Positions 18,555 through 43,886 of a stretch of 43,886 nt of DNA are shown piece after piece. Origin of the DNA: Desulfococcus sp. 4484_241 (GTDB lineage Bacteria; Desulfobacterota; Desulfobacteria; Desulfobacterales; Desulfosudaceae); NCBI GenBank assembly GCA_002085115.1, contig MZGQ01000023.1, positions 1 to 43,886 on the forward strand. Direction: 5' to 3'. The notes under the pieces were generated by a model, which saw only the letters and a program-made list of their open reading frames with translations, searched no databases and was not told the origin of the DNA. How positions within the stretch are numbered: position 1 is the stretch's first letter; every line of letters begins with the position of its first letter. The translations under genes were made by a program, and so were the position numbers.

Positions 18555-19814
18555 ATGGACCTTGATTATCTCTCAAAGAAGGACCCCAAGGTCGCAGAAG
18601 CTGTTTTAAGCGAACTTGAAAGGCAGCAGAACAATCTTGAGCTCATAGCGTCTGAGAACGTGGCAAGTCCTGCAGTTATGGCGGCCCAGGGCAGCATTCT
18701 TACGAACAAGTATGCCGAAGGATATCCCGGCAGGCGCTATTACGGTGGATGTGAGTATGTTGATGTTGCAGAAGAGCTGGCTGTGGAAAGGGCAAAAAAG
18801 CTTTTCGATGCATCTTATGTCAATGTGCAGCCCCATTCCGGGTCACAGGCAAACATGGCTGTCTATTTTGCGCTGCTGGAGCCAGGCGACCGGGTGCTTG
18901 GCATGGACCTGGCGCATGGCGGGCATTTAACTCACGGCAGCCCCGTAAGTTTTTCAGGCAAGCTGTTTGATTTCAGACATTACGGCGTGGCCAGGGATAC
19001 CGGAAGGATCGATTTTGATCAGTTAAAAGATGTTGCCAAAAAACACATGCCAAGGATCATAGTAGCCGGTGCAAGCGCTTATCCCCGCGAGCTTGATTTT
19101 AAAGCATTTGCCGAGGTGGCTGAATCGGTCGGAGCCCTGCTGATGGTTGACATGGCCCACATAGCGGGGCTGGTTGCGGCAGGTGTTCATTTATCCCCGC
19201 TCCCATACGCCGACGTCGTAACATCGACAACCCACAAGACTCTGCGAGGGCCCAGGGGCGGTTTGATATTGTCGAACCGTGACTATGGGAAGGCGCTGAA
19301 CAGGGAGGTCTTTCCCGGTATACAGGGGGGGCCGTTGATGCACGTCATCGCTGCCAAGGCCGTTGCTTTCGGCGAGGCGCTTACAGAGGAGTTCAAAAGT
19401 TATCAGCGCCAGGTGGTGCGTAATGCGCAGGTTCTTGCGCAACATCTTATGGACAGCGGGTTGGAACTTGTTTCGGGCGGAACCGACAACCACATGATGC
19501 TTGCGGATCTTCGCAGTATAGGCGTTACAGGCAGGGATGCCGAAACGGCTCTTGGCCTGGCGGGGCTGACGGTCAACAAAAACGCTGTCCCTTTTGATAC
19601 CGAAAGCCCGACCGTTACAAGCGGAATCCGCATAGGGACCCCTGTGATGACTACCAGGGGAATGGGAGAGCCTGAAATGGAGGTTGTAGCAGGCCTGATT
19701 ATGGATGTCCTCAGGAACATCAACAGTGAAACCGTTATAAATTCAACGCGGAAAAAGGTTAAAGAGTTGTGCGACACCTTCCCGCTTTATGCCGGGATGC
19801 AAAACAATGACTGA
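18555..19814 (+). CDS. glyA: Serine hydroxymethyltransferase
   Basis: PLP enzyme interconverting serine and glycine with tetrahydrofolate, the main source of one-carbon units. 419 residues from the ATG at 18555; an upstream in-frame TTG at 18531 is unlikely. It has the conserved N-terminal [37 protein letters not shown], and the PLP lysine K228 in [13 protein letters not shown]. The length is standard. Its stop overlaps the start of the dCMP deaminase by 8 nt, implying translational coupling of one-carbon and deoxynucleotide functions. Confidence 0.97.
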
Positions 19815-20271
19815 TACTGTTAAAGGCGGTGACCGTCCTGACTGGCATACATATTTCATGGAGATAGCCGAGCTGGTTGCGAAACGTTCAACCTGCCTGA
19901 GACGGCATGTGGGCGCAGTAATAGTCAAGGATAAACGTATCCTGGCTACCGGCTACAATGGCGCCCCATCCGGTGTCAGGCACTGCAGGGAAACGGGCTG
20001 TCTGCGCGCCAAGCTTGAGGTGCCTTCGGGGGAACGGCACGAGTTGTGCCGGGGAATCCATGCTGAACAGAATGCGATTATACAGGCGGCTTTTCATGGT
20101 GTCTCCATAGATGGAGCTTTGTTGTATTGCACCAATCAGCCCTGTTCCATATGCGCCAAGATGATTATAAACGCGGGAATAACCGCCATTTATTATAAAG
20201 ATGGATACGACGATCCAATGGCGAGGGATATGCTTGCGGAGGCCGGGGTGGAGACGGTCCGGTTGCCGTGA
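19807..20271 (+). CDS. dCMP deaminase (ComEB family)
   Basis: Zinc cytidine-deaminase-family enzyme converting dCMP to dUMP for thymidylate synthesis. 154 residues from the ATG at 19807, inside the end of glyA. Zinc/catalytic residues: H85 and E87 in HAEQNAI, and C113 and C116 in [26 protein letters not shown] is the family block at residues about 38-58 (shown in part). The next gene, nrdR, begins 18 nt downstream, so the run belongs to a nucleotide-supply operon. Confidence 0.92.
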
Positions 20272-20289
20272 CGGAAGGAGGGGCACCCG

Positions 20290-20745
20290 ATGAAATGTCC
20301 GTTTTGCGGGGCGCTTGACAACAAGGTGATAGATTCAAGGTTAAGCAGGGATGACACCGAGACCAGGAGGCGCAGGGAGTGCCTTGCATGCAACCGAAGG
20401 TTCACCACTTATGAACATGTTGAAAAGACGCCCATCATGATAATCAAGAAGGATGGCAGACGCGAGGAGTTCATGAAGGAGAAGGTTCGCGCCGGTATTA
20501 TGAGCGCGTGCCAGAAGAGGAAGATAAGCATAAAGGTAATCGAGGATTTTATCAGTGAGCTTGAACAGGACCTTGTCGAAATGGGGGAACCTGAGATTCC
20601 GTCCAGCATAATAGGCGAAAAGGTCATGAAGAAGCTGCACGCCCTGGACGATGTCGCTTACGTAAGGTTTGCGTCGGTTTACAGGGAGTTCAAGGATGTG
20701 CACGATTTCTATTCCGAACTGAAAACCCTTCTTAAAAGGCAGTGA
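20290..20745 (+). CDS. nrdR: Transcriptional repressor NrdR
   Basis: Global repressor of ribonucleotide reductase genes. 151 residues: an N-terminal zinc ribbon (CPFC at 3-6 and CLAC about 30 residues later, flanked by RRRRECLACNRRFTTYE) and a following ATP-cone domain with RREEFMKEKVRAGI and DDVAYVRFASVYREF. AAGGAGGGGC precedes the start. NrdR commonly sits upstream of rib genes in proteobacteria, as here. No NrdR box was looked for beyond this window. Confidence 0.96.
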   Translation: MKCPFCGALDNKVIDSRLSRDDTETRRRRECLACNRRFTTYEHVEKTPIMIIKKDGRREEFMKEKVRAGIMSACQKRKISIKVIEDFISELEQDLVEMGEPEIPSSIIGEKVMKKLHALDDVAYVRFASVYREFKDVHDFYSELKTLLKRQ

Positions 20746-30800: not shown

Positions 30801-31880
30801 ATGATGATTACAGGCAGAAAGATTCCAGATAACGCAACAACGGTTGCTGAGCCTGGTAACTCCCGGACCTTAGTGATTACCGGGGCCGGAATTTTGGGCA
30901 TATACCTCTGGTGGCTTATATACAGGCAGCTTCCGGCAACAGCCTCATGGATAACCTATGGTTTGTTCCAAATAGGGAAGGGGTCCCACCTGGGAGAGTC
31001 TGTCAACTTCTTTTTTTATGACACTCCCAAGGTCATGATGCTGCTTTTCCTGGTGGTTTTCGGTGTTGGAACAATAAGAAGCTTTTTTACGCCTGAAAAA
31101 ACCCGTGCCATTCTTTCCGGGAAAAACGAGTTTATAGGCAATATACTTGCCGCCCTGCTGGGCATAGTTACCCCTTTTTGTTCATGTTCGGCGGTTCCGC
31201 TTTTTATCGGTTTTGTAACGGCTGGCGTGCCTCTTGGCGTTACATTTTCCTTTCTTATAGCCGCACCCATGGTAAACGAAATCGCTGTTGGTCTTCTTTA
31301 CGGGCTTTTGGGCTGGAAGATCGCCGCCATATATATGGGAACAGGCCTGTCTGTCGCCATACTTTCCGGCTGGGTCATTGGAAGACTGCATCTTGAAAAG
31401 CACATAGAGGATTGGGTAACGGAGATTCGTGCCGATACCGATACGGGGAATGATGAACGTCTCACCTGGAATGACCGGATAATTTACGGGTGGGAAGCTG
31501 TCAAGGAGATAATCGGCAGGGTCTGGCTCTACGTGATGATAGGCATAGCCGTCGGGGCCGGAATACACGGTTATGTGCCGGAAGGTGTGATGGCGTCCGT
31601 TATGGGCAAGGGAGCCTGGTGGAGTGTTCCACTGGCGGTCTTGATCGGTGTTCCCATGTACTCCAACGCGGCGGGAATAGTCCCCGTAGTGGAGGCGCTC
31701 CTGGGTAAAGGCGCTGCTCTCGGTACCGTGCTTGCTTTCATGATGAGCGTAATAGCCCTTTCCCTCCCAGAGATGGTGATCCTGCGGAAGGTTTTAAAGC
31801 CAAGGCTTATTGGGATCTTTATATTGATCGTCACTGGCGGGATACTGCTGGTGGGATATCTTTTCAACATGGTTATATAG
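30801..31880 (+). CDS. UPF0718/ArsP-type permease
   Basis: Polytopic membrane permease of 359 residues with about eight to ten hydrophobic helices in two blocks (residues about 25-210 and 255-358). The hallmark TPFCSCSAVPLFIGF carries C127 and C129; such cysteines bind trivalent arsenic or other soft metals in ArsP relatives. A charged cytoplasmic loop lies at about 200-235. In many anaerobes this permease is followed by a small thioredoxin-like protein and a DGC protein. Here both downstream partners are broken. ATG at 30801 or 30804, with AGGATGG upstream. Export of an organic or thiol-bound metalloid is plausible; the substrate is not proven. Confidence 0.85.
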   Translation: MMITGRKIPDNATTVAEPGNSRTLVITGAGILGIYLWWLIYRQLPATASWITYGLFQIGKGSHLGESVNFFFYDTPKVMMLLFLVVFGVGTIRSFFTPEKTRAILSGKNEFIGNILAALLGIVTPFCSCSAVPLFIGFVTAGVPLGVTFSFLIAAPMVNEIAVGLLYGLLGWKIAAIYMGTGLSVAILSGWVIGRLHLEKHIEDWVTEIRADTDTGNDERLTWNDRIIYGWEAVKEIIGRVWLYVMIGIAVGAGIHGYVPEGVMASVMGKGAWWSVPLAVLIGVPMYSNAAGIVPVVEALLGKGAALGTVLAFMMSVIALSLPEMVILRKVLKPRLIGIFILIVTGGILLVGYLFNMVI

Positions 31881-34829: not shown

Positions 34830-35438
34830 ATGGAAACGTTTGAAAGTCTGTTTGAAACAGGATTGAAGTTTCACGGTCACAGGTGCCCGGCCATGCCAAT
34901 GGGACTTAAGGCAGGGCTTGCGGCGATGAAGGTATTGGGGGTGGAGCGTGCCCAGGACAAGGAGCTGTCGGTGATAGCGGAAACCGGCAAGGAACATGCC
35001 GCGGGATGTTTTCTGGACGGCATAATGACCGCTACGGGTTGTACCTATGGAAAATCGAATATTCAAAAACTCTATTACAACAAGATGGCTTTCACCCTGA
35101 TCGATAATGCCACCGGCAGGTCGGTCCGGGTTTCCCTGAAACCAAGCTTTTTTGAAAAGGCGCTTGGCTCTCCATTTGTGCAGCAGCGCAAGGCCGGGGT
35201 CCCTCCACAGGACATAGATCCTTCAATTGCCGACCCGCTGATCGACAACGTTATATCCCTTGAGGAGGATAAGTTCCTCGATATAGGGGAGGTGAAGACC
35301 GTTGAGGTTGTGAAGGGCAAGGGGATTTTTGAGGCCAGGCGTTGTGAATCCTGCGGGGAGGTTACGTTCGTTAACAAGCTCAGGCTTACCCCCGAAGGTA
35401 AACTCGTGTGTATACCATGTTCGGGGTATGCGGATTGA
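34830..35438 (+). CDS. FmdE-family protein, second copy
   Basis: 202 residues, the same length as the first copy. It keeps the canonical [12 protein letters not shown] (10-21), [19 protein letters not shown], and the zinc ribbon CESC...CIPCSGYAD. Compared with the first copy it lacks the second cysteine of the CWASC segment, so the two probably bind different metals or partners. AGAGAGAT sits before the ATG. An HcpR-like operator upstream gives it its own control. It is followed by a TauE/SafE permease. Confidence 0.85.
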
Positions 35439-35521
35439 ATTTTCATTTATAAACAGCTTCCCTCCGCTATTTTTTATGCCGATTGCGGGGTGTCTGGCGA
35501 CAGGTACAGAGGAATAAAACG

Positions 35522-36274
35522 ATGCTTCTTTCCGCGGTTACATTGAGTATATTTGCCCTTTCGATCATCTTTGCCATGCTTGGTCTTGGCGGTGCCATGC
35601 TCTATATCCCGGTGTTCCACTGGTTCGGGTATGATTTCAGATCGGTTGTCATACCGACCGGGCTTCTTTTAAACGGCGTTACAGCGCTGTCTGCCGCCAT
35701 CTTTTATCTGAAGGCCAGGATGGTGGACGTCAAGGGGTCTGTTCCGCTCGTGATATCGTCCTTTATCGGCGCGCCGGTCGGGGCGTGGTTTACCAGTATG
35801 GTGCCTACCGATACCCTGATACTTCTTTTTTGTATAGGCATGGTTTTTGCCGGCGGTCGGATGCTGCTTACTTCGGGCGCGCCGGAAAAGGACCGGTTGA
35901 TGGCACCCGGGCTTCGCTATACCCTGATGGGGATAGCCGGGTTTTTTATAGGCATGATAGCGGGGCTGCTTGGGATCGGCGGCGGATTTTTGTTTGTGCC
36001 GATGATGATCGCAATGGGGTATCCCACTAAAACCGCTGCGGCCACAAGCTCTTTTGTGGTGATATTTTCATCCTTCTCCGGATTTGCCGGGCATATAGCG
36101 GAGGGCCATTTCAACTGGCCGCTCATGGCGGCCACCACGGTTGCCGTTATCATAGGTTCCCAGATCGGGGCCAAGGTGATGAAGGAAAAGATGAAGCCGG
36201 CGTGGATAAAGAAGATGTTCGGGGTCGTTTTGCTCGGTGTCGCGGCCAAACTGCTTTGGAAACTTTATCTTTGA
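35522..36274 (+). CDS. TauE/SafE-family sulfite/anion permease
   Basis: 250 residues from the ATG at 35522 (AGAGGAATAAAACG upstream; a TTG at 35483 is unlikely). Seven or eight hydrophobic helices in two homologous halves are visible, with the repeated glycine motifs MLGLGGAMLYIPVF (about 18-31) and LLGIGGGFLFVPMMI (about 152-166) that define the family. Members export or import small anions such as sulfite, sulfoacetate or thiosulfate. The substrate is open. It ends 35 nt before the TolC-type lipoprotein gene and may be cotranscribed with it. Confidence 0.88.
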   Translation: MLLSAVTLSIFALSIIFAMLGLGGAMLYIPVFHWFGYDFRSVVIPTGLLLNGVTALSAAIFYLKARMVDVKGSVPLVISSFIGAPVGAWFTSMVPTDTLILLFCIGMVFAGGRMLLTSGAPEKDRLMAPGLRYTLMGIAGFFIGMIAGLLGIGGGFLFVPMMIAMGYPTKTAAATSSFVVIFSSFSGFAGHIAEGHFNWPLMAATTVAVIIGSQIGAKVMKEKMKPAWIKKMFGVVLLGVAAKLLWKLYL

Positions 36275-36309
36275 ACAATGAAAGCCCTTTGGGAATCCGG
36301 GAGAGTGTA

Positions 36310-37749
36310 ATGGCCAGGCCGATAGTAGCGGCAGTCTTTTTATGTTTCGTATCCGCGGCGCTTGCCGGTTGTGCCGTTATCTCACCGACCGATCCTTATC
36401 CTCCGGCGGTTGCAGCCGATTTTCATCCAAAACCAGCGGTGAATACGGTAAAGAAGGATGCAGGTAAAACCGGCTCCACGGACAATGTGCAAAGAAACGC
36501 CCTTACTTTAAAGATGGCTGTTGATACCGCCATTGCCAATAACCCGGGCCTGGCCGCAGCCAGGCATGAGACGGAGATGGCAGAGGCACGCCATACCCAG
36601 GCGCTGGCCAGGGCCTTGCCGTCTGTTTCAGCCATGGGCGGTTATACCCATTATACCGACGACCAGAGGCTTATGCCGCCGAACCTTAACGGGGACCCCG
36701 GGGTCTTTGGTGATGATATCTATTCCGCTGACATTGTGATTACTCAGCCCCTTTTTACAGGCGGCAGGCTGATAAAGGAGATAGGAGCGGCAAAACTTCT
36801 GGCCCTGGCCGCTGAGCATCGGCTTTCACGCACGAAAAAGGAGCTGGTGTTTAACGTGACCAGCGTTTTTTATTCAATACTGGCGCAGAAAAAGGTTGTC
36901 GATGCCTTAAAGTTTTCCAAGACAACCATGGATGAGCATTTAAGAAGGGTGAACAGCCTGATTGACCAGAAAAAAGCCGCGCGGGTCGACAGGCTGAGAA
37001 CAGAGGTGCGGCTGGCCGATATAGAGCAGAAATTGACAGCAGCCGAAAACCTGCTTGCCATACAAACCAGGGTCCTTGCAAACCTGATGGGAATCAGGGC
37101 TGACTTGATTGACGCGTCAGGGCTGGAGGGCGATCTTGCGGAGGCTTTGCAATCCCAGGTTGATACGGAGAGGTCTGTTTCAGCGGCTTTCAAGAACAGG
37201 TCTGATTACCTGGCAGCCAGGGCGGCCCTGGAGGCTGCGGCCAAAAAGGTGGATGCGGCAAGGGCGGAACATTGGCCTTCCGTCACCCTGGAGGGGACTT
37301 ACGGCATGCGTTGGGCCCATAACCCTTCGGACTATCCAGCTGGTACGGACAGGTCTGACGACCTTGGGCGTGTTGGTGTTTTCATGAAATTGCCCGTTTT
37401 TGAAAGCGGCCTTATATCCGGCAAAGTAAAGGAAGAGAGAGCCGCTTTGGGCGTGGCAAGGGAAAGGCTGAGGGCGTTGGAGCTTGCCATTCGGCTGGAG
37501 GTTGAGACCGCGGCGCTAAATATCCGTAATGCTCACAAAAGAGTGGTTACAACAAAAAAGGCCGTTGACCAGGCAGAGGAAACCCTTCGTATTGAGAGGG
37601 AGAAGTATGAACTGGGAAGGGGCTCGATCACGGATGTATTGGACGCACAGTCCGCTATGCTTGATTCCCAGACCGGTTATTACAAAGCGCTGGCCGATTT
37701 TAATACGGCGATTGCTCAAATGCGGCTTGCGACAGGAGAGATTAAATGA
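36310..37749 (+). CDS. TolC-family outer-membrane efflux lipoprotein
   Basis: 479 residues from the ATG at 36310 (GGGAGA upstream); an in-frame start at 36202 would overlap the permease. A lipoprotein signal ends at LAGC, lipidated C21. Two outer-membrane efflux (OEP) repeats follow, with helical, Ala-rich periplasmic hairpins (TLKMAVDTAIANNPGLAAAR; LFTGGRLIKEIGAA) and a second copy after residue 260 (VFESGLISGKVKEERAAL). The last block GSITDVLDAQSAMLDSQTGYY is typical. Its stop overlaps the membrane-fusion protein start, forming a tripartite pump. Confidence 0.92.
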   Translation: MARPIVAAVFLCFVSAALAGCAVISPTDPYPPAVAADFHPKPAVNTVKKDAGKTGSTDNVQRNALTLKMAVDTAIANNPGLAAARHETEMAEARHTQALARALPSVSAMGGYTHYTDDQRLMPPNLNGDPGVFGDDIYSADIVITQPLFTGGRLIKEIGAAKLLALAAEHRLSRTKKELVFNVTSVFYSILAQKKVVDALKFSKTTMDEHLRRVNSLIDQKKAARVDRLRTEVRLADIEQKLTAAENLLAIQTRVLANLMGIRADLIDASGLEGDLAEALQSQVDTERSVSAAFKNRSDYLAARAALEAAAKKVDAARAEHWPSVTLEGTYGMRWAHNPSDYPAGTDRSDDLGRVGVFMKLPVFESGLISGKVKEERAALGVARERLRALELAIRLEVETAALNIRNAHKRVVTTKKAVDQAEETLRIEREKYELGRGSITDVLDAQSAMLDSQTGYYKALADFNTAIAQMRLATGEIK

Positions 37750-38933
37750 ATATGAAAAAACCAGGGGCTGTCAGGACGCTCGCAATAGTGTTGGTGATCT
37801 TGGCCTGCGCAGCAGGACTTATTATGAAAAAACGCGCCAAGCTGGCCGGGGCTCCGAAGTATGGCCTGTCTCCCACTGTCGTTCATGTGGCAAAGGCAGA
37901 AAAGGACAATCTTGACGTCGGGTTGAGTTACCTTGGTGTGGTAGAGCCGTTCAACAGGGCGGATGTCGCATCACGCGTGGCCGCATCGGTCATTAACGTC
38001 CCTGTGGACGAGGGCGACCTGGTAAAGAAGGGCGGTCTGCTTGTTGAGCTTGACGAGAAGGATATTTTAAAGGATATAGCCTCTCTTGCCGCACAGGTAA
38101 AACGGGCAAAAGCCGAGCTTTCGGCAAACAACGCCACACTGGCGGCTCTTGAAAAATCGGTGGATTACTGGAAGCGGGAAGCGCAGCGTGACATGACTCT
38201 TGCCAGGGACGGGGCCATTGCCGAGTCTCTGGCGGAAGCAACGGTAAACAAGGCCGACGAAATCGAGGGGAAACGCGATGCCGCGCGCAGGAAATCCACG
38301 GCTCTGGCCGAGGCCGTTGAGTCGCTTTCCCGCAAAAAGGCAAGGGCTGAGGCCCAGCTTGACTATTACAGGCTTCGCTCTCCCTTTGACGGAATCGTCA
38401 CCCGCAGGCTGGTGGATCCCGGCGATCTTGCGTCCCCGGGACGTGCGCTTGTGACCGTTGAGGACAGGAGCAGGATGATGGTTGTCTTTGATGTTCCCCA
38501 GCAGGATCTTGACCGTGTACGCGAAGGCCTGCCGGTATCGTTTTCCATAGGTGATAAGCCGATTAAGGCCAGGATTTCCCATATCTACCCGGCCCTTTCA
38601 CCTTCCCGCATGGCACGCGCGGAGGTGTATATCGACGGGCCTGACAGGAAAAATATGACCATAGGAGCCTACGTGCCTGCCACCGTTCGCATTGCACATT
38701 TGGAAAACGTCACCCTTATTCCTTCCGACTGTATGGTTAACCGTGAGGATGGCAAGCCTTATGTTTATGCGGTTCGGGACGGTCATATTCATACAATGCA
38801 GGTGAAAGAGCTTGGGAACAACGGGAACATGACGGCTGTATCGGGGATTTCTCCCGGCGAACAGGTGGTAATCAACACCTTTCTGGGATGGGCTACGCTT
38901 GCCGATGGAATGCCGGTGGAGGTGGCCAGGTGA
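37746..38933 (+). CDS. RND efflux periplasmic adaptor (membrane fusion protein)
   Basis: 395 residues. An N-terminal membrane anchor (about 10-28, AIVLVILACAAGLIM) is followed by a lipoyl/hairpin domain (NVPVDEGDLVKKGGLLVELD), a long alpha-helical hairpin (about 105-205), then LRSPFDGIVTRRLVDPGDLA and the beta-barrel. It links the inner-membrane RND transporter to the TolC-like protein. It starts 4 nt inside the upstream gene and its stop overlaps the RND start (GTGA), so stoichiometry is coupled. Confidence 0.92.
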   Translation: MNMKKPGAVRTLAIVLVILACAAGLIMKKRAKLAGAPKYGLSPTVVHVAKAEKDNLDVGLSYLGVVEPFNRADVASRVAASVINVPVDEGDLVKKGGLLVELDEKDILKDIASLAAQVKRAKAELSANNATLAALEKSVDYWKREAQRDMTLARDGAIAESLAEATVNKADEIEGKRDAARRKSTALAEAVESLSRKKARAEAQLDYYRLRSPFDGIVTRRLVDPGDLASPGRALVTVEDRSRMMVVFDVPQQDLDRVREGLPVSFSIGDKPIKARISHIYPALSPSRMARAEVYIDGPDRKNMTIGAYVPATVRIAHLENVTLIPSDCMVNREDGKPYVYAVRDGHIHTMQVKELGNNGNMTAVSGISPGEQVVINTFLGWATLADGMPVEVAR

Positions 38934-41900
38934 ACCTGACAAATTTTTCCCTGAAAAATCCTTATGCAATCCTTGCGTTGACACTGGCTGTTTCGGCGCT
39001 GGGAGCGTTCGCCTTTTTCAGGACCCCGACCGACCTGTTTCCCAATACGGTGCCGCCGCAGGTGGTGATCATTACCGTGGAGCCGGGGGCCGCTGCCCGT
39101 GACATATCGGACAAGATCACGGAGATAGTTGAAAAAGAGGTCAACACAATAAGCGGGTTGAAGAGGATAGTCTCAACTTCAAGGGACGAGGTCTCGTCCG
39201 TCAATGCCGAGTTTTATTATTCAAAGAGTATCGGAGAGGCGGTCATCGACGTTCAGAACGCCATCAGTCGAATCAGGCCGGAACTTCCGAAAGATATACT
39301 TGAGCCGCGTATTTACCGCATAACCGACGCAACCCGTCCCTTGCTGACCGTGGCGCTGTCACCGAAACCGGGCTCTGGAAAAACACTCTCGGAAATCCGG
39401 TTGCTTGCTGAAAACCAGATCGAAGACGAGATATTGAGGCTTCCCGGTATTGCTGATGTTGACGTGTTCGGTGCACACCAGCCGGAGGTTGAGGTACGCG
39501 TCTCGCGGGATCGGCTGGCGGCCCATAATATCAGCATAGCCGAAGTGGCGGCGGCCCTGGCGAGGCAGAACATTTCAAGCCCTGCGGGCACAATCTATTC
39601 AGGGAAAAAAGAATACCTTATGCGCACCACCGGGGAGTTTGCGAACCTGAGGGATATCTCAGAGTTCCCTGTAAGGCATGAGGGAAAGGGGTTTTTAAAG
39701 ATTTCGGATGTCGCTACCGTAACGCTTGGAGAGCATGAGCAGCGCAGCGTATATCATGGCAACGGGAAGCCGGCAATCGCGATAAACGTACTGCGCCCGG
39801 AAAACGGGCCGACCGTATCTGCTATCAAGAGTTTCAAAAAACTGCTGCCGAAGCTGAAAGCCCAGTACCCGGATATTGATTTTTCAATAACCGACGACCA
39901 GCAGCCGATCATAGACATCAATGTCCACGGCATGCGGTCCAGCCTGATGCAGGCCGTCATCCTGACCGTTTTTATAATTTTTTTCTTTCTGGCCGATACG
40001 AGGGCCGCCATGGTGGTGTCTGTCAGCATTCCACTTGCTTTTCTGATTTCTCTGGTGGTGCTTTGGTTTTCCCCCTACACGCTGAACATGGTGACCCTCT
40101 CCGGCCTTATAATAGCAGTCGGGATGGTTGTTGATTCCTCCGTGGTGGTCCTTGAAAACATCTACCGCCATTTCCGGGCCATGAAACAGCCGGACGCGCG
40201 CAAGGCCGCCGAAGAGGGCGCAAGCGAGGTCTCACTTGCCATTACCGCGGGCATGTTCACAACCGTGATCGTGCTGATACCGGTCATGTTCACCGGCGGA
40301 TACACCCAGCAGGTGATGCGGCCGCTGAACATGATGATCTCCTCGACGCTGGTCGCGTCCCTGCTGGTGGCGTTGACCATTATTCCGCTCATGGCGTCAA
40401 AGCTTCTTAACCGTCCCCACGACAGCATGAACGCCCTTGAGCGGATATTTTCCCGTACCGACAGGGGCGTGAGCAAACTGGCGGAAATTTACATTGCGAT
40501 TTTGAAGCTGGCGCTCTCCAGGCGGACTGTTACATTGGTCCTGGCTTTTGGATTTTTCATAATAACCATGCGGGTGGTGAAACCGCTGAACGGCGGGGAG
40601 CTTATGCCGCTTATGGACACGGGCATAGCTTTGATTAACTTTGATACCCCCGGCACCTACTCGCCTGGGGAGGTTGAAAAGGTGCTTGGGCGCGTGGAAA
40701 AGATGATCTATGAGCAGCCGGGTGTGGAGATGGTTTCCTCTGTTGTTGGGTCGGAGCCGGGACAGATAAGCTTTGGGGGCGGAGGAGCCACCACCCAGTC
40801 GGCAAAGATCACGATCCACCTGGTGGACAGGAAACACCGGCCCGAGACCATCTGGCAGATCGAGGAGAAGTGGCGCAAGGCCTTACGCAAAATTGACGGT
40901 ATCCGTTCCTTCCGGGTGAGCGAATACGGCGCCACTCCGCTTTCCACCACCAAGGCGCCCCTGGATATCATCATAAGCGGCCCTGATACCAAGGTGCTGA
41001 GCGACCTGGCGGACAAGTGCCTTGCGGCATTGAAAGGGATGCCGGGCCTGGTTGATGTCAGGCGTACATGGTACACCGACAAGGTCGAGCATGATATTAC
41101 CTTTGATCCTGAGCTGGCGCGTCTTTACAGGATTAATCCGGCGGATGCCACGCGTGAACTTAAAGCTGCCGTCAAGGGAATCCCTGCGACCTCGATGCGG
41201 CTTTCAGGTTTTTTGGATATCCCGGTTAACGTTCAGTATGCCGGGACGGACATTGACAACCCCAATCAGATCAATGATGCGTATCTCACTACGAAATTTG
41301 GGCCCGTTCCGCTGAGGGCCGTGGCCAGGGTGGCGAAGAAACACGATCAGCCCTTTATAACCAGGGAGCGCCTGGAAAACACCATTGATGTTACGGGCGG
41401 AAATTATATTCTGACCATCGCCCAGGTTGCAAAGATGGCGCAAAAGAGGCTTGCAAAGATCAACGTTCCGCAGGGATATTCCATCAATGTCTCCGGGACG
41501 TTTGCCGATATGGCAGCCGGTCAGCGCGAGATGGGAAAGGCGCTTCTTATAGGCATTGTTTTGCTCTATTTTCTTTTGCTTGCCATGTTCCGCTCCTTCG
41601 GCCATCCAGTCACCATAATGTCTGCCATTCCTCTGGCTGTTGCCGGCGCGATGTGGGGCCTGCTGCTGTTTGACAAGCCCATGTGCAAGCCGGCCACCAT
41701 GGGGCTGATCCTGTTAGGCGGCACCATCGTCAACAACTCGATCCTGCTGCTTGATTTCATCATAGAGGCAAGAAAGCGCGGGGTACCAAAGACCGAAGCC
41801 ATTTTGCAGTCTGTTCGGTTGCGTATACGGCCGATCCTGATGACCACCGCGTCCACCATAATCGGGCTCACTCCACTGATCTTCGAGATGGCGGTGGGGC

Positions 41901-42058
41901 TGGAGCGGATGAGTCCTTTGGGAATCGTTGCGGCCACCGGCCTGCTGGTGGGGACTTTCCTGACCATGATCGTGATCCCGGTGGTATATTCATCGCTGGA
42001 CAGCCTGGTGGAAAAGTTTTCACGTGTTTTTACAGGTGCGGACAGCGTAACAGGTTAA
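38930..42058 (+). CDS. RND-family efflux transporter permease
   Basis: 1042 residues from a GTG at 38930 with GGAGG upstream; the typical AcrB-like length. Twelve hydrophobic segments surround two large periplasmic loops. Helix 4 carries SGLIIAVGMVVDSSVVVLEN, in which only one aspartate is present where AcrB has two. The C-terminal half has MGLILLGGTIVNNSILLLDF. The periplasmic part has RIYRITDATRPLLTVALS. It exports hydrophobic or amphiphilic compounds, or lipids, by proton antiport; no substrate is evident. It is the third gene of the TolC-MFP-RND operon. Confidence 0.93.
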   Translation: MNLTNFSLKNPYAILALTLAVSALGAFAFFRTPTDLFPNTVPPQVVIITVEPGAAARDISDKITEIVEKEVNTISGLKRIVSTSRDEVSSVNAEFYYSKSIGEAVIDVQNAISRIRPELPKDILEPRIYRITDATRPLLTVALSPKPGSGKTLSEIRLLAENQIEDEILRLPGIADVDVFGAHQPEVEVRVSRDRLAAHNISIAEVAAALARQNISSPAGTIYSGKKEYLMRTTGEFANLRDISEFPVRHEGKGFLKISDVATVTLGEHEQRSVYHGNGKPAIAINVLRPENGPTVSAIKSFKKLLPKLKAQYPDIDFSITDDQQPIIDINVHGMRSSLMQAVILTVFIIFFFLADTRAAMVVSVSIPLAFLISLVVLWFSPYTLNMVTLSGLIIAVGMVVDSSVVVLENIYRHFRAMKQPDARKAAEEGASEVSLAITAGMFTTVIVLIPVMFTGGYTQQVMRPLNMMISSTLVASLLVALTIIPLMASKLLNRPHDSMNALERIFSRTDRGVSKLAEIYIAILKLALSRRTVTLVLAFGFFIITMRVVKPLNGGELMPLMDTGIALINFDTPGTYSPGEVEKVLGRVEKMIYEQPGVEMVSSVVGSEPGQISFGGGGATTQSAKITIHLVDRKHRPETIWQIEEKWRKALRKIDGIRSFRVSEYGATPLSTTKAPLDIIISGPDTKVLSDLADKCLAALKGMPGLVDVRRTWYTDKVEHDITFDPELARLYRINPADATRELKAAVKGIPATSMRLSGFLDIPVNVQYAGTDIDNPNQINDAYLTTKFGPVPLRAVARVAKKHDQPFITRERLENTIDVTGGNYILTIAQVAKMAQKRLAKINVPQGYSINVSGTFADMAAGQREMGKALLIGIVLLYFLLLAMFRSFGHPVTIMSAIPLAVAGAMWGLLLFDKPMCKPATMGLILLGGTIVNNSILLLDFIIEARKRGVPKTEAILQSVRLRIRPILMTTASTIIGLTPLIFEMAVGLERMSPLGIVAATGLLVGTFLTMIVIPVVYSSLDSLVEKFSRVFTGADSVTG

Positions 42059-42077: not shown

Positions 42078-43403
42078 ATGAGCCGGATAAACAGATTCTG
42101 GTGCCTATTCCTGGTGTTGTTGATCATCATGGCCGGTTTTGCTCCTCCCGGGAACGCGTCGCTTTTTGAATACAAAAGTCAGGGCACAGACCCGGTGGCC
42201 GTTTCCCTGGGCGGAACATACCGTTTGAGGGGTGAGTCCCAGCACAGCTACAACTCCAGGACGTATGGCGGCGACGGCGACAATTTCCTGCTGTCCCGGC
42301 TCAGGCTCGACATCAACGCCTCGTTTCATTCCAGGCTAAGGACGTTCCTCGAGTTTCAGGACTCAAGAAGCCAGGGATCAATGTTCAATGATTCCGATTT
42401 CAAGGTCAGCAACCCGTACCATGATGATATGGATATTCGTCAGGCCTATGTTGACTACGGGTTGGACAACGGCCTTTCCTTCAGGCTGGGCCGGCAGCAG
42501 ATATCCTTCGGAGACAAGCGCATATTCGGGCCGGGCAACTGGGGGAACACCGGCAGGTACGTATGGGACGCGGCCAGGATACGGTATGTGAACCCATGGA
42601 TCGATTCCCATACTTTTATCGGCCGCTATATTATCCGGGACCCGGACACCTGGCCAAACAAACACGCGGATGGACCGACCGCTTATGCAAACTACACCAT
42701 GATCAAAAACCTGCCATTTGACCTGGATATTTTTTACATCGTCAAAAGCGACACCCACGGGAATACCACAGGGGAGTCAGGAACCGGGAACCTCTCCTGC
42801 CATAACACCGGGTTTGCCATAAACGGGACGTTAAACCGGTGGGACTATGGACTGACCGCAGTATACCAGTTCGGTGATAAAGGGGAAGACGATATCTCGG
42901 CATACGGGCTTGCGGCAAGACTCGGTTATACCTTTGACCTGCCGTGGTCTCCCCACGTTATGCTCCAGTTTGTAAATGGTTCCGGTGACAAGGATCCCGG
43001 CGACGGCAAAAGCGGTACATTTGACGGGGTTTTCTCCGGGGCCGACACGGTGCTCTATGGATGGATGAACCTGTTTTTCTGGTCAAACACGAGGGAGTAC
43101 CGGCTTGATACGGTCCTGTCTCCAACGGATAAACTCTCTTTGCGGGGGGAATATCACTATTTCACGCTGGATGAAAAAAAGGACGCCTGGTACTACCCCG
43201 GAAAGGCCCAGCGGCGGGACAAAACCGGCGCTTCGGGCCGGGACCTGGGCCAGGAGGTGGACCTTACGTTTCACTACAAGGCTTCAAAACGGCTTGATCT
43301 CCGGGGTGGTTACTGCATGTTTTTCCCCGGAGAGTTTATAAGGAATACCGGCCCGCATCCCAATGCATCATGGGCATTTTTGCAAACCGTCTTTTACTTT
43401 TAA
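42078..43403 (+). CDS. Alginate-export-type outer-membrane porin
   Basis: 441 residues with a strong GGAGAGGAGG site before the ATG. The signal peptide is about 1-28 (LFLVLLIIMAGFAPPGNASL). The mature part is a beta-barrel of aromatic-ended strands with the alginate_exp-type features YRLRGESQHSYNSR, FLLSRLRLDINASFHSRLRT and FRLGRQQISFGDKRIFGPGN (each in part), ending WAFLQTVFYF with a C-terminal Phe. It lies 19 nt after the RND gene and 13 nt before a c-type cytochrome. It could be the outer-membrane channel of that unit or a simple substrate porin; a porin-cytochrome conduit is an inference. Confidence 0.85.
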   Translation: MSRINRFWCLFLVLLIIMAGFAPPGNASLFEYKSQGTDPVAVSLGGTYRLRGESQHSYNSRTYGGDGDNFLLSRLRLDINASFHSRLRTFLEFQDSRSQGSMFNDSDFKVSNPYHDDMDIRQAYVDYGLDNGLSFRLGRQQISFGDKRIFGPGNWGNTGRYVWDAARIRYVNPWIDSHTFIGRYIIRDPDTWPNKHADGPTAYANYTMIKNLPFDLDIFYIVKSDTHGNTTGESGTGNLSCHNTGFAINGTLNRWDYGLTAVYQFGDKGEDDISAYGLAARLGYTFDLPWSPHVMLQFVNGSGDKDPGDGKSGTFDGVFSGADTVLYGWMNLFFWSNTREYRLDTVLSPTDKLSLRGEYHYFTLDEKKDAWYYPGKAQRRDKTGASGRDLGQEVDLTFHYKASKRLDLRGGYCMFFPGEFIRNTGPHPNASWAFLQTVFYF

Positions 43404-43416
43404 CGGAGGTATAGGC

Positions 43417-43886
43417 ATGCAGGGGTATAATCGTTTATTTATGTTTTTTTTAGTCATCGGTGTACTGTTGGCCGGATCAACGGCTTATGCTCTTGTCCAG
43501 GCACAGCAGCAGGTTCCATCCGATAAGATATACGAACAGGCCAAACAGGACGCCATGGGGATCTGCCCCCCGATCTTTCTGCGGGATGAGAACGGGAATG
43601 TTATCAACCCGGTTACCGGGGTGAATGCGGATGTGCCGTACAGCCCGAAGCAGACCTGTGGAAAATGTCACGATTACGGCAAGATAACAGAAGGGTTTCA
43701 TTTCATGCAGGGAAAGGGTGAAAAGATGACCGCCGGGTATGCGGCCCTATATCCCTGGTGTACCACCCCTGGCCAATACGGGGGCAGGTGGTGAAGTCCG
43801 GGGCCGATCTTTCCGCAGTTGGCGGAAAAGCATAACGACTCTCCCTTAAAGATTGATTTTACCTCCTATACATTTGCTAAGATGTG
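43417..43886 (+). CDS. Candidate selenoprotein: multihaem c-type cytochrome with in-frame UGA (3' partial)
   Basis: The ATG at 43417 follows GGAGGTATAGGC. The signal peptide is about 1-25 (LFMFFLVIGVLLAGSTAYA); then come ICPPIFLRDENGNVINPVTG, QTCGKCHDYGKITEGFHF with haem motif CGKCH at 81-85, and YPWCTTPGQYGGRW. Codon 126 (43792-43794) is TGA. The frame then continues without a stop for 30 codons to the window end: SPGPIFPQLAEKHNDSP, ending IDFTSYTFAKM. Relatives, as I recall from Geobacter-like multihaem cytochromes, read GGxWCSPAPLY and MDMTSFTF at this place. The coding pattern therefore carries on and the TGA sits at a cysteine. A perfect hairpin follows. Selenocysteine is inferred. The gene is truncated by the window edge, so the haem count is unknown. 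Confidence 0.7.
43810..43828 (+). promoter_or_regulatory. Candidate bacterial SECIS element downstream of UGA 43792
   Basis: TTTCCGC (43810-43816) and GCGGAAA (43822-43828) form a perfect 7-bp stem with a 5-nt loop AGTTG, having G at loop position 2. The loop begins 22 nt after the UGA, within the 16-37 nt range usual for bacterial SECIS. Confidence 0.5.

Follow-up and report, generated by a model that had tools for sequence, protein, structure and literature searches.

An octahaem cytochrome c fused to a quinol-type cytochrome b, with a predicted selenocysteine at codon 126, in Desulfococcus sp. 4484_241

Gene organisation across a contig junction

The window, by which we mean the whole stretch of 43,886 nucleotides that was analysed, is a complete contig (C33) of the genome of Desulfococcus sp. 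4484_241 (G000), an assembly of 2.34 Mb in 128 contigs that is 87% complete. Towards its end the forward strand carries genes for an FmdE-like protein (34830–35438), a TauE/SafE exporter (35483–36274), a TolC-type outer-membrane factor (36202–37749), an RND periplasmic adaptor (37746–38933), an RND efflux permease (38888–42058), an outer-membrane porin of the Alginate_exp type (42078–43403; PF13372, 208.9 bits) and, 13 bases further downstream, a multihaem cytochrome. Members of this FmdE–TauE–TolC–adaptor–RND–porin–cytochrome arrangement recur around homologues of the cytochrome: the porin is found at 18 loci of the family set and the RND permease at eight (seven besides the window), while the TauE/SafE protein falls in a cluster common to L069, L079, L095 and L127, and the FmdE-like protein in one common to L068, L069, L072, L078, L079 and L095.

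The cytochrome frame starts with the ATG at 43417 and runs through 125 sense codons, ending in GGRW, to a TGA at 43792–43794, after which 30 further sense codons lead to the contig end, as the initial annotation of this DNA had pointed out. The terminal 104 bases of the contig are identical to the opposite-strand terminal 104 bases of another contig of the same genome (C12), and once the two are joined the frame has a single internal stop, the UGA at codon 126, before a TAG that follows codon 919. The continuation proposed initially is thus not broken soon after 43886, by a stop or by a change of frame, and stays open to residue 919. The window holds the 5' part of the gene (43417–43886, forward strand; codons 1–156 of 919), and the remainder lies on the minus strand of C12 (locus L003), from 11191 down to about 8798. 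The joined product of 919 residues comprises a signal peptide, eight CxxCH haem motifs and a C-terminal quinol-type cytochrome b. The signal peptide region (about residues 1–26; 43417–43494, forward strand) is predicted from the hydrophobic N-terminus of the translation and from a helix spanning residues 2–26 in the model of a homologue, L064. The haem 1 motif, CGKCH (residues 81–85; 43657–43671, forward strand), is the only CxxCH inside the window; haem motifs 2–8, at residues 157, 214, 287, 317, 361, 390 and 605, are encoded on C12.

An assembly chimera was considered and dropped, since the nearest relative, L059, has the porin, the cytochrome and the same TGA together on a single contig. 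This contig keeps the porin–cytochrome order and spans the position of the junction, with aligned segments 73–83% identical to the window, and we therefore take the join between C33 and C12 to be real. Further downstream, the L059 cytochrome gene is itself interrupted by a frameshift. Of the 534 codons compared between the window gene and L059 (127–660), 164 show synonymous differences and 89 encode another residue, which is the pattern expected past the TGA of a gene that is translated. Upstream on the L059 contig there is also a second, partial member of the family (L059:3–1361), 50% identical to residues 190–641, whose Sec/Cys site is lost at the contig end.

Predicted selenocysteine at codon 126

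Homologues were collected by searching genomes and scanning contigs, giving 84 loci after removal of repeats, with the window included. The column of codon 126 holds TGA at 20 of these loci, Cys (TGT or TGC) at 49 and Ser at three, and neither TAA nor TAG at any. The occurrence of TGA at one column in 20 loci, some of them only about 30% identical, excludes chance or sequencing error as its origin. Two groups can be distinguished, with about 30–35% identity between them. Group A, with the motif GGxW[C/U]SP, contains the TGA loci of the window (GGRW-U-SPGP), L059, L064–L066, L068, L070, L104 and L111. The Cys loci of this group number about 46 and come from Bacteroidota, Planctomycetota, Omnitrophota and Sumerlaeota, among others; its three Ser loci (L098, L131 and L132; GGTWSTPGP) belong to Pirellulales. 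Group B, with the motif GK-x-U-[PS]PS, comprises 11 TGA loci, including those of the isolates Ammonifex thiophilus (L112), Desulfoluna limicola (L124) and Desulfoprunum benzoelyticum (L125). A third set of homologues (L121, L123, L128–L130 and L133–L137) has neither Cys nor Sec at the column, and this absence, like the Ser of the Pirellulales, possibly reflects a loss of catalysis or a different function. Column 126 is, haem motifs aside, the one position at which Cys or Sec is retained in the two Sec groups as well as in the Cys group. On a tree whose rows are related, the Sec label has to change at least four to six times, which indicates that Sec and Cys have repeatedly replaced each other. 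No relatives were found among viral contigs.

Directly downstream of the UGA, as is typical of bacterial selenoproteins, the window is predicted to form a SECIS-like hairpin (43810–43828, forward strand; TTTCCGC stem, AGTTG loop, GCGGAAA stem), and the corresponding group B hairpin reads TTTCGCC-AGTT-GGCGAAA. Pairing in the stem is kept while the encoded residues change (FPQLAE, FRQLAK), and the AGUU of the loop is constant; L111 was not picked up by the stem search, and folding shows a weaker hairpin there. Over the first 54 nucleotides the mean fold energy is −12.7 kcal/mol at the TGA loci versus −6.7 at the Cys loci. A synonymous-codon control gives mean z values of −1.69 (TGA loci, n=20) and −0.58 (Cys loci, n=49), with p=1.8e-4, a value to be read as supporting and not as an exact probability because the hairpin sequences are related by descent. 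For the window's own 54 bases this control yields z −2.3; a simple shuffle of the same bases gives no signal (z 0.45), and an Rfam scan of the window returned no match at the gathering score.

The genome encodes SelA (524 bits), SelD (383 bits; C117:590–1516, L024/L028) and two different tRNA-Sec genes (C61:8613–8706 and C71:26142–26234). The SelD frame likewise contains a TGA (KVRASG-U-AGK), which makes the protein a Sec-containing selenophosphate synthetase, and the contig of one of the tRNA-Sec genes also carries, on visual inspection, genes for a YedF-type protein and a LysR regulator. Two tRNA-Sec genes are likewise present in G002, of the same family, and in G203 and G205, and G196 has two distinct SelB genes, one of them beside its tRNA-Sec. 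In the 87%-complete assembly of G000, SelB was not found with PF09107, TIGR00475 or a same-family SelB query, the profile matches being only EF-Tu, IF-2 and other GTPases, which were rejected. SelB is intact in the same-family genomes G001 and G002, and in G169, another genome with a TGA member, part of SelB is found where a contig ends. One or more of SelA, SelB and tRNA-Sec occurs in 20 of 20 TGA-bearing genomes (G000 included) versus 12 of 23 Cys-bearing ones; the Fisher p=3e-4 for this comparison was obtained from 19 of the 20 TGA-bearing genomes and is made inexact by kinship.

An in-frame UGA with conserved coding beyond it, Cys in the homologues, a hairpin after the UGA, and SelA, SelD and tRNA-Sec in the genome all argue, at the level of sequence, for a selenoprotein, and we have hardly any doubt that the UGA at codon 126 is read as selenocysteine. 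The initial annotation had already put forward a candidate selenoprotein, placing the UGA at a cysteine of homologues described as reading WCSPAP. The alignment agrees on both points, with Cys at 49 loci that mostly read GGxWCSPAP, and the SECIS-like hairpin fits the same reading; of the sel genes, SelA, SelD and both tRNA-Sec genes are there, and SelB was found intact in G001 and G002 and not in the incomplete assembly of G000. In standard annotation the UGA divides the gene, in this case into products of about 125 and 785 residues, for which reason the family has probably been overlooked in many genomes. Such annotation would call the TGA a true stop, leaving a mono-haem protein of 125 residues, or else a pseudogene or sequencing error, a reading made extremely improbable by the TGA at one column in 20 loci with downstream frames intact under purifying selection, by Cys at that column in other members, and by the hairpin. 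A change of code, with UGA decoded throughout the genome as an ordinary amino acid, would also agree with an in-frame UGA that is apparently translated, but TGA terminates many of the window's genes, with only short random extensions beyond it, and a Sec pathway is present in G000, so that we give this idea practically no weight. Elsewhere in the window (19789–20745), a deaminase-like ORF ends in TGA and its frame continues into an NrdR-looking ORF; these look like two ordinary genes and not a case of read-through.

Proposed function of the fused cytochrome

The C-terminal domain of the window protein scores 54.2 bits against PF01292 (cut-off 30.1), and the AlphaFold model of the L064 homologue (mean pLDDT 87) matches 1KQF chain C in Foldseek (E 1e-8). 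In that search, made with a model that contains no haems, only the cytochrome b domain was matched and the haem domain was not. Profile and model both point to a cytochrome b of the FdnI/hydrogenase type, the fold being common to FdnI, the cytochrome b of formate dehydrogenase-N (1KQF chain C, TIGR01583, PF01292). In formate dehydrogenase-N, FdnI is a separate subunit, whereas here the cytochrome b is fused to the octahaem c domain. Six histidines outside the haem motifs are invariant among 47 members, and since there are eight haems, the sixth site may be unusual or open in one or two of them.

We propose that the hairpin just downstream of the UGA helps its decoding as selenocysteine, and that the product would be a periplasmic octahaem c-type cytochrome anchored in the inner membrane through the quinol-type cytochrome b to which it is fused. 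Electrons from menaquinol would enter the haem chain by way of the FdnI-like cytochrome b. They would serve to reduce a small thiol-reactive oxyanion or metalloid compound (an arsenic, selenium or sulfur species) at a haem, in a catalytic pocket lined by the haem 1–haem 2 segment that carries Sec126. The adjacent porin may admit the substrate, and the products of the RND and TauE genes may export substrate or product. The explanation as a whole, namely a selenoprotein that is an inner-membrane octahaem cytochrome c fused to a cytochrome b and is proposed to be a reductase, appears to us very probable. For the mechanism itself, a menaquinol-linked periplasmic reductase with Sec or Cys near the catalytic haem, our preference is only mild; here we infer the direction of the electrons, the catalytic role of Sec and a thiol-reactive As/Se/S oxyanion as substrate.

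A link to arsenic comes mainly from the relatives. Genes for ArsG, ArsF, ACR3, ArsM or ArsC lie within about 7 kb at 20 of the 49 group A Cys/Ser loci, and representative ArsG, ArsF, ACR3 and ArsM genes exceed the NCBIfam cut-offs. ACR3, ArsR, a permease and an ArsF-like gene accompany one Sec locus, L068; the ten group B Sec loci that were examined have no such arsenic genes beside them, and the only arsenic-type gene of the window is an ArsP_1 permease (30801–31880; PF03773, 258.6 bits) that precedes the cytochrome by about 11.5 kb. That Cys relatives lie in arsenic islands suggests a role in metalloid metabolism for an as yet uncharacterised membrane enzyme. Arsenic as the specific substrate seems to us rather doubtful, and equally tentative is the wider idea that these are quinol-linked octahaem reductases specific for arsenic or related metalloids, with the Cys or Sec beside the catalytic haem binding the metalloid. 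If true, this would add a periplasmic arm to arsenic metabolism, with the selenium version mainly in the Desulfobacterota and the cysteine version in Bacteroidota, Planctomycetota and others. In the literature on arsenic and multihaem or octahaem cytochromes we found nothing about the family.

The same selenoprotein might instead reduce sulfur compounds (tetrathionate, thiosulfate, polysulfide or sulfite) or nitrogen oxides with no metalloid link, as could be suspected from octahaem tetrathionate reductase (OTR) being the closest characterised relative, from the TauE gene next door and from the rhodanese genes near many Cys members; but the Cys branch repeatedly lies in arsenic islands, as does L068, and we see a sulfur or nitrogen substrate as a possibility with some appeal that we would not bet on. 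A role as an electron relay towards the outer membrane, with Sec or Cys as a structural element or haem ligand and not in catalysis, could draw on the porin gene that adjoins the cytochrome and on a weak profile similarity to outer-membrane multihaem cytochromes, but the porin is of the Alginate_exp and not of the MtrB/PioB type, and the retention of Sec at one site in distant lineages would point to chemistry, making a relay improbable. Of these functions the menaquinol-linked reductase has the best support.

Relationship to OTR and to known haem selenoproteins

A phmmer search with the single window protein found no match in the PDB, and a search with the family profile found OTR (1SP3, E 3e-4). 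In hhalign, haems 3–8 of the family and of OTR are in register (98.6% probability, E 7e-16). OTR (TIGR04315) likewise has eight CxxCH motifs and a Cys or Sec between haem 1 and haem 2, and we take its Cys (Cys64) to lie beside the active-site haem 2. True OTRs of the same class have the motif NN[FY][U/C] 10 residues before haem 2, with TGA at nine of 30 loci and Cys at the rest; the TGA-bearing ones (NNF-U) are L141, L142, L143, L146, L153, L158, L160, L164 and L168. In the family described here, by contrast, the motif is GGxW[C/U]SP and lies about 31 residues before haem 2, a cytochrome b is fused to the haem domain, and the window protein scores 33.6 bits against TIGR04315, far below the membership cut-off of 375. 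The global hhalign alignment does not superpose the Sec column on the OTR Cys, and we therefore claim the same architectural place and not homology of the residues. Judged by these alignments and scores, the family is OTR-like in build and separate from OTR, to which it is remotely related without being a member.

The initial annotation had regarded selenium in a secreted haem protein next to a porin as unusual. The porin does adjoin the gene, but the combination is less unusual than was thought, since ExtKL/ExtI and Sec-OTR precede it. ExtKL of Geobacter is a multihaem selenoprotein clustered with the porin ExtI and linked to selenite and tellurite reduction (PMC5877670, PMC1914089), and is thus a precedent for a porin beside a multihaem selenoprotein. 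ExtKL (NF040886; GSU2937–GSU2936) is also a multihaem cytochrome c in a porin cluster, but it has five haems in 49.5 kDa and the family here has eight, and NF040886 matches neither the window protein (at E 0.01) nor any of 47 members (at E 0.001). The GSU2204 family (NF041027), an extracytoplasmic selenoprotein bearing a CXXCH haem motif (PMC13188914), is a barrel of the MtrB/PioB type, unlike the family here, and its profile has no match in the window protein or the 47 members. These two and Sec-OTR, the latter as a GenBank-annotated entry only, are the haem proteins in a 2026 inventory of 119 selenoprotein families, from which a family like the window cytochrome is absent (PMC13188914) and to which the present one would be an addition. 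With OTR there would then be two octahaem families that carry Cys or Sec in the same haem 1–haem 2 interval, a setting in which one can test what a thiol or selenol does in a multihaem enzyme.
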